The position numbers and the translations under genes are program-made. This document shows, in pieces, positions 11 through 63,348 of a stretch of 64,000 nt of DNA. The DNA comes from Akkermansia sp. (GTDB lineage: Bacteria > Verrucomicrobiota > Verrucomicrobiia > Verrucomicrobiales > Akkermansiaceae): contig JAFSFD010000027.1 of the NCBI GenBank assembly GCA_017435365.1, positions 1 through 64,000 on the forward strand, given 5' to 3'. A model generated the notes under the pieces. That model saw only the letters and a program-made list of their open reading frames with translations, was not told the DNA's origin and made no database searches. The first letter of the stretch is position 1, and each line of letters begins with the position of its first letter.

Positions 11-199
11 TACCGCTGCTAATGCAGCGGTAACTAGTCGCTTCGCTCAATGAATTACACCGGCAGAGCCGGTGTATGTAAATACCACAGCTGCGCTGTG
101 GTATGAAAGCGCAGCTGGCGCTGCGCATGAAATACCGCCTGGCGGCGGTGCGAAAGCGGCACTACGTGCCGCATGGCTCTGGCGCACACGCCAGAGCCA
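11..199. repeat. Array of seven tandem perfect hairpins
   Basis: Seven consecutive perfect inverted repeats with 3-4 nt loops: 11-19/24-32, 56-64/68-76, 83-91/95-103, 109-115/120-126, 134-139/144-149, 156-162/166-172 and 174-184/189-199. Stems are 6-11 bp and differ in sequence, while most linkers are short and A-rich (TGAAA-like). Several stems start with TACC or TAC. No T-run follows any of them, so they are not ordinary terminators. The array may extend left of the window. No gene is seen in 1-350; bases 240-350 hold only a G-rich leader before the next gene. Confidence 0.85.
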
Positions 200-3283: not shown

Positions 3284-3337
3284 CCCGACAACGACAAACA
3301 TCAATTTGTCGAGATTAGTACTCAAACTTTGGGACAC
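3281..3337 (+). repeat. Element R, copy 2 (right half only)
   Basis: Matches the right end of the repeat from TGCCCCGACAACGACAAAC through the CAAATTG-like segment to ACTCAAACTTTGGGACACG. The left half and the central palindrome are absent. The left edge is the point where the fucosidase pseudogene ends. Confidence 0.75.
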
Positions 3338-3347
3338 GTGTGCTTCC

Positions 3348-11325: not shown

Positions 11326-11330
11326 TGCAC

Positions 11331-11480
11331 ACGTGCCCCCAAAGTTTGAATACAGAGCTCGATAAATTGATGTTTGTCGTTGTCGGGGCACGGGACTTCA
11401 GTCCCGAAATAACGGTGCTTCCAATCGGGACTGAAGTCCCGTGCTCCGACAGAGTTCCCCCACAAATTCCAATTTATCTG
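11331..11480 (-). repeat. Element R, copy 3
   Basis: Complete or nearly complete copy in reverse orientation, with the terminal CCCCCAAAGTTTG, the central 18-bp inverted repeat and the other end CACAAATTCCAATTTAT. Once reversed, its loop matches the copies at 36024, 39732 and 63206. It ends 7 nt before the left attachment repeat of the island, so it belongs to the original chromosome next to uvrA. Confidence 0.85.
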
Positions 11481-39653: not shown

Positions 39654-39731
39654 ACTTATTTTTATACAGATCTCCTCCGCGCCACACGCGTGTCCCATAG
39701 ATTTGGTAAGCAATAGAAACATCACTATCTG

Positions 39732-39880
39732 CCCGACAAATTGGAATTTGGCGGGGAACTCTGTCGGAGCACGGGACTTCAGTCCCGATTGGAAGCACCG
39801 TTATTTCGGGACTGAAGTCCCGTGCCCCGACAATGACAAACATCAATTTATCGAGTTCTGAACTCAAACTTTGGGTCACG
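39732..39880 (+). repeat. Element R, copy 5 (complete)
   Basis: Complete copy: left end CCGACAAATTGGAATTTG, central inverted repeat around the loop ATTGGAAGCACCGTTATTT, right end CATCAATTTATCGAG, and ACTCAAACTTTGGG at the edge. Used with the copy at 63206 as reference for the others. Confidence 0.88.
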
Positions 39881-39886
39881 TTTGAC

Positions 39887-63205: not shown

Positions 63206-63348
63206 CCCCAAAGTTCAATCACAGAGCCCGACAAATGGGAATTTGTGGGGGAACTCTGTCGGAGCACGGGACTTCAGTCCCGATTGGAAGCACCGTTATT
63301 TCGGGACTGAAGTCCCGTGCCCCGACAACGACAAACATCAATTTGTTG
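63206..63348 (+). repeat. Element R, copy 6 (complete)
   Basis: Complete copy. The left edge CCCCAAAGTTCAATCACAG is the inverse of the right-edge sequence of other copies, revealing imperfect terminal inverted repeats. The central inverted repeat and loop match copy 5. It lies between tatD and ftsK. Confidence 0.88.

Follow-up and report, generated by a model that had tools for sequence, protein, structure and literature searches.

We are close to certain that the hairpin array at the start of the window (the whole 64-kb stretch of Akkermansia DNA that was analysed) is one arm of a multicopy family of mirror-image hairpin arrays, and that it lies in a MITE. The explanation that we favour, and that we hold to be probable though far from secure, is that the family is a mirror-image hairpin-array DNA element with an optional gene for a 23S rRNA-intervening sequence protein (IVP), carried here by the MITE; the same degree of belief applies, jointly, to our placing of the window array as the right arm in a copy, lacking the gene, of one family, which we call family A. 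As an earlier note on this DNA had claimed, positions 11–199 hold seven perfect hairpins (stems of 6–11 bp, loops of 3–4 nt), and dinucleotide shuffles of positions 1–220 (n=2000) never gave more than three (0–3 hairpins each); the claim that the stems differ while the linkers are similar was also upheld (linkers TGTAAA, TGAAA and ATGAAA). No other cluster of at least four hairpins was found in the 64 kb, and the single-strand fold of the array reached z = −9.0 as DNA and −9.1 as RNA. A search of the whole window against Rfam at gathering thresholds, rRNA families included, returned no match, and neither did searches of plasmid and phage collections. The features of the array are as follows:

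1–10, no strand: contig end and edge of the element core
11–32, forward: hairpin H1, TACCGCTGC-TAAT-GCAGCGGTA, closest to the element core
33–39, forward: linker ACTAGTC, read in aligned copies, with variants ACTTGTC, ACCAGTC and ACTGGTC
40–46, forward: mini-hairpin H2, GC-TTC-GC, an eighth hairpin, longer in other copies (e.g. GCCGCTGCGCGGC)
47–55, forward: linker TCAATGAAT, with TCAATGAA invariant in 23 aligned arms
48–138, forward: weak match to the Rfam Gut-1 RNA (27.2 bits, E 0.0025; gathering 50)
56–76, forward: hairpin H3, TACACCGGC-AGA-GCCGGTGTA
77–81, forward: linker TGTAA(A), kept in the 23 arms
82–104, forward: hairpin H4, ATACCACAGC-TGC-GCTGTGGTAT, paired changes counted
109–126, forward: hairpin H5, GCGCAGC-TGGC-GCTGCGC, paired changes counted
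134–149, forward: hairpin H6, ACCGCC-TGGC-GGCGGT
156–172, forward: hairpin H7, GCGGCAC-TAC-GTGCCGC
174–199, forward: hairpin H8, TGGCTCTGGCG-CACA-CGCCAGAGCCA, outermost
196–243, reverse: right terminal inverted repeat of the carrier MITE, consensus CACACGTGTCCCAAAGTTTGAGTACTGAGCCCGATAAATTGGAATTTGG, 85% identity over 48 bp

The source genome is assembled as 2.5 Mb in 78 contigs, and base 1 of the window is a contig end (C35) that falls inside the element. Positions 1–240 have ~30 matches within the same genome, many at contig ends and many arranged as a minus copy followed ~90–150 bp farther by a plus copy, from which we conclude that the window array is one arm of an assembly-breaking repeat; positions 1–89 of the window recur without a mismatch at the end of contig C62, and 1–104 at the start of C57 in reverse complement. 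The scan of relatives suggested in the earlier note recovered the array in 7 of 39 genomes (its own included), all of one genus. The array is thus not alone, as the note had allowed it might be; its assertion that the array was not copied from one unit is borne out by a multicopy family with differing stems, and the mirror-image layout of that family supports its suggestion that inverted repeats are maintained or generated by some process. Conservation at this particular locus, on the other hand, did not materialise: at the orthologous sites in 76 same-genus genomes, a comparison whose top matches seem to belong to a different paralogue of this gene, the gene-adjacent array is not conserved, and we attribute this to the array being a mobile insertion.

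A complete copy is a mirror image, consisting of a hairpin array, a core and an inverted hairpin array. From the centre outward, the arm of family A runs through the TACCGCTGC hairpin, ACTAGTC, the small GC hairpin, TCAATGAA, a hairpin, TGTAAA, a hairpin, TGAAA, a hairpin, ATGAAA, a hairpin and so on, the left arm being mirrored, and the core carries CATTGGGAA...TTCCCAATG. The position and stem of H1 are shared by nearly all family A copies; the H3 stem is TACTTGC, TACACGC or ACACTGGC in other copies. A gene-less whole copy (L045) folds at −306 kcal/mol vs. −160 kcal/mol for shuffles (z = −22.6), forming a long stem built by linker-linker pairing, from which hairpins protrude in opposed pairs. 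At another locus (L027, 2590–2800), a transposase-like frame, ISAs1-like by eye, starts directly behind a family A array.

Most array copies of this genome, including that of the window, ride inside a MITE with inverted ends CACACGTGTCCCAAAG, terminal repeats of 16–48 bp, a length of ~200–570 bp and dozens of copies; 83 ends in the genome lie within two mismatches of CACACGTGTCCCAAAG vs. 3 for a control pattern. The copy on contig C40 is flanked by a duplicated GGAAAGAAA and is missing from the relatives G005 and G011, where a clean empty site is left, and nine MITEs had target duplications of ~9 bp, some of which differ by a single mismatch or are a base shorter. Like other MITEs, the carrier has terminal inverted repeats, 9-bp duplications and no transposase (no autonomous full-length transposon or transposase was recognised among the 83 ends); what sets it apart is its cargo, a swappable mirror-image hairpin array, which elsewhere occurs without MITE ends. 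Such stand-alone arrays occupy the guaA-clpB and prfB sites in several species and are lacking from the same sites in others. The transposition evident from the terminal repeats and duplications is that of the MITE, and no enzyme moving the array itself was identified. The MITE family has spread the gene-less version, and would likewise have placed the window copy, one end of which is visible (196–243, its outer part decayed), upstream of the glycogen phosphorylase-like gene at 351.

The window holds more members of this terminal-repeat family, as MITE ends or whole MITEs, at 2148–2190, 3295–3342, 11328–11478, 39685–39884 and 63207–63340, here with a REP-like palindrome pair (GGGACTTCAGTCCCG ... 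CGGGACTGAAGTCCC) in place of the hairpin array. The same MITE at L186, L188, L193, L200 and L168 (in G000 and G011) holds at least two further mirror-array types (CGACATATCCATAGCGAG and GAACACTAGCCGGGGGTAAG), and an IVP gene was seen in neither. Upstream of prfB in G005 (L175) sits a chimaera with a left arm of the ATATCGTC family, a right arm of the TGAAA family and the core lost.

Given their short tags, intergenic positions and many copies, the hairpins could also be REP/REPIN-like palindromes mobilised in trans by a Y1 (HUH) transposase, in the manner of RAYTs; both kinds of element are interspersed palindromes arranged as inverted pairs, and Y1_Tnp genes are present in 12 of the 13 array-bearing genomes. 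We nevertheless regard this as improbable, since an arm here has 6–8 different hairpins and not a single palindrome pair, the gene linked to the arrays is PF05635 and not Y1, and the carrier makes 9-bp duplications, which Y1 elements are not known to make. In G221, at least, Y1 is dispensable: this genome bears arrays and has no Y1_Tnp match.

The optional gene of the favoured DNA element was found in the family A copy on contig C51, which encloses a PF05635 frame whose product matches PF05635 (E=1.3e-14) and TIGR02436 (E=1.4e-18); named relatives of this gene-bearing form are Akkermansia from ruminant guts. The window copy and most of the others showed no such frame. The genus has many IVP genes, a good part of them between mirrored hairpin arrays, and the IVP subfamilies each come with their own linker (TGAAA/TGTAAA, AATCTCACT, AACTTATCTC or ATATCGTC). 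The modelled IVP protein is predicted to be a four-helix bundle (pLDDT 94) that resembles BT_0352 (2RLD), XCC0516 (2GSC, a pentamer) and Avd of diversity-generating retroelements (4DWL, TM ~0.84), and the model also fold-matches the ribonucleoprotein of those retroelements. Since PF05635-Avd homology has already been noted (PMC10053308) and the predicted fold is the same, one could envisage kin of diversity-generating retroelements in which an Avd-like protein works in trans with a reverse transcriptase. This is the least probable of the readings weighed here, because RVT_1 is missing from 8 of the 13 array-bearing genomes, G000, G182 and G010 among them, and a reverse transcriptase in trans was accordingly rejected as a requirement.

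Weighing against the favoured element, many PF05635 genes outside Akkermansia and Clostridia lack hairpins and have at most short-motif arrays; in other Verrucomicrobiota, many hairpin-free IVP genes lie between inverted short-motif arrays (e.g. GGGAGTGA). At L094, L099, L102, L056 and L066, IVP genes with few or no hairpins are flanked by short-motif arrays with the motifs GCTTAAA, TTTCAACC, GGGAGTGA, ACATGGTCC and TTTCACG, and at L071 (G011:C139) an IVP gene lies between two long terminator-like hairpins (AAAAAAAGCCTGAGC...GCTCAGGCTTTTTTT) within ~110-bp inverted repeats. Direct-repeat arrays were tried as a general rule and dismissed, direct motif scores at IVP genes being equal to those of controls and inverted scores above them.

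Comparing copies for compensatory changes, as the earlier note had advised, revealed how the stems change. Across 23 aligned arms, 9 of 16 base pairs were changed on both sides (46 cells) and none on one side, with linkers invariant, and the observed pairing was reached by 0 of 500 shuffles. Stems were perfect in 135 of 137 cases, and single mismatches of the G-T and A-C types (9:6, 0:2 and 1:4) showed A-C to be about as frequent. Between G000 and G182, whose guaA-clpB flanks are 97.8–100% identical, the left-arm hairpins of G182 are the right-arm hairpins of G000, and the IVP cassette, which lies between inner repeats of 14 bp, has opposite orientations in the two. As this is one locus in two draft metagenome assemblies, the inversion could be an assembly error, a possibility to which we give less weight because the inner repeat is only 14 bp. 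Loops, too, are found either way round (AGA in the window but TCT in L010; GA and TC elsewhere). A switch from one arm to the other during replication, or recombination of the two, would account for the paired changes, the exchange of arms, the inversion and the flipped loops alike. It is therefore likely, judging from these patterns, that the arrays function as DNA, with strand switching preserving the palindromes, although selection on DNA or RNA could instead maintain the perfection of the stems.

The same template switching would explain the perfect stems and flipped loops if the arrays were a pure by-product, that is, functionless passengers in which replication slippage perfects long inverted repeats, the IVP gene being another passenger of the MITE or the locus; the absence of the gene from most copies agrees with this. 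We think such an account rather unlikely, since passengers would not be expected to keep constant linkers, to be tied to terminators or to accompany PF05635 in two phyla whose linkers differ.

Both the second phylum and the terminators emerged when thirteen Akkermansia IVP proteins used as queries returned more than 580 relatives, Clostridia making up most of the best 80. As the Clostridia genomes were chosen for holding an IVP gene, several of them for clear-looking arrays, the counts that follow describe these genomes and not Clostridia at large. Perfect hairpins of at least 7 bp were enriched 13-fold upstream of the IVP gene (2.70 vs. 0.20 per 330 nt in controls, p=4.6e-22), the array lying on the gene strand with linkers that are again TGAAA and TTTCA. 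A perfect GAAAA...TTTTC terminator directly preceded the array at 47 of 64 loci (controls, 0 of 64), with a tRNA gene just before the terminator in about four fifths of 60 loci. One Clostridia arm is matched by Rfam Gut-1 (RF01706) over the gathering score of 50, at up to 90 bits; arrays of G182 and G010 also reach it, and the window, at 27.2 bits, falls below. Each of nine Clostridia has 2–34 Gut-1 matches, and neighbouring matches at most 60 nt apart were opposed in 29 of 29 cases and convergent (plus then minus) in 27 of 29, the motif occurring on both strands of one locus as opposed arms. IVP genes lay within 400 nt of a listed Gut-1 match in 17 of 33 cases (0.19 expected), and 73 of 92 arrays had no IVP gene nearby.

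At L240 (1820–1960), L226 (2242–2314) and L250 (just past the gene), the first part of the upstream array recurs as a direct repeat downstream of the IVP gene, at L240 together with half of the tRNA terminator; these repeats may mark the true ends of the element or a target duplication. L306 (G223:C49:102000–103700) has a ~510-bp module of terminator plus array as a tandem duplicate, with a second array type (ATGATAT linkers) between the modules.

The 2010 account of Gut-1 (Weinberg et al., 2010, PMC2864571) drew on human gut sequences alone and presented it as a likely noncoding RNA. Under the strongest competitor to a DNA element, the arrays would be noncoding RNAs with a structure, or elements of 5' UTRs, maintained by selection at the RNA level, with the IVP protein perhaps binding its own leader. 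The Gut-1 matches in Clostridia, the position of those arrays upstream on the gene strand and the strong covariation all speak for this. We consider it unlikely all the same: G-U is not clearly in excess of A-C mismatches and one-sided changes are absent, the motif is found on both strands of one locus, the gene is missing from most copies, and little RNA is expected from arrays that follow strong terminators. The near-absence of G·U intermediates, the matching of both strands, the copying from arm to arm and the inverted cassette lead us to prefer a DNA element. Among the three functions guessed at in the earlier note, a recombination substrate or a single-stranded DNA signal fits better, and a structured RNA is disfavoured, the Gut-1 model itself describing one strand and one arm of what is here a two-arm inverted element with an IVP gene and tRNA terminators.

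The location between genes and behind terminators would also suit a role in separating operons, the hairpin clusters being maintained as insulators or as terminators of transcription from both sides, and clusters of hairpins have been reported to act as terminators (PMC8355165). This, too, seems improbable, as it leaves the gene, the mirror order, the inversion and the insertion polymorphism unexplained.

We therefore return to the DNA element. In full, it comprises a hairpin array, a core, an optional four-helix-bundle gene, a core and an inverted array, the encoded protein being a putative pentamer-forming member of the 23S-rRNA-IVP/Avd fold. For its workings we propose the following. When single-stranded, the arms would fold into hairpins and the two arms would pair through their linkers; strand switching or arm recombination would then copy hairpins between arms, invert the centre and restore perfect palindromes, yielding fast paired changes in the stems with constant linkers. 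The protein would bind the repeated linkers or the hairpins and help the element insert, preferentially at positions that immediately follow a transcription terminator (that of a tRNA in Clostridia), and gene-less copies would be parasites of gene-bearing ones. That the IVP protein recognises the linkers and aids movement is a reasonable guess.

The closest precedent is the 23S rRNA intervening sequence (IVS) with an S23p/IVP gene, e.g. in Coxiella burnetii, which has been called selfish, transposition being among the hypotheses (PMC4990558). There, as here, a PF05635/TIGR02436 gene lies between fold-back inverted repeats and mobility is hypothesised; the IVS, however, sits in rRNA, whereas the copies described here are intergenic, between protein genes or behind tRNA terminators and not in rRNA genes, are numerous in each genome, have hairpin arrays for arms and mostly lack the gene. 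Integron attC arrays differ in that the hairpins here are a few nucleotides apart with no genes between them. In the literature searched, mostly without subscription journals, we found no description of hairpin arrays or mirror repeats beside IVP or four-helix-bundle genes, and no text joining the IVS, Gut-1 and PF05635-Avd homology to hairpin arrays.

We suggest, tentatively and with less confidence than we place in the element itself, that these elements, with dozens of copies among gut bacteria from two phyla, represent a new class of invertible, self-maintaining DNA element that combines an Avd-like pentameric protein with mirror-image hairpin arrays, its stems rewritten by template switching and its family-specific linkers fixed, spreading behind terminators in several phyla. 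On this view, 23S rRNA IVSs would be those members that ended up in rRNA, and the Gut-1 'RNA' would be one arm. Three loose ends would thereby be joined, namely the role of the PF05635/S23p proteins, which are very common yet uncharacterised, the movement of 23S rRNA intervening sequences and the nature of the Gut-1 RNA, a 16-year-old candidate of unknown function that gains a genetic context. With its own protein for each linker family, the system offers a ready test of specificity, and the arrays constitute a natural record of palindrome rewriting, in two-sided changes almost without intermediates, flipped loops and inverted centres.
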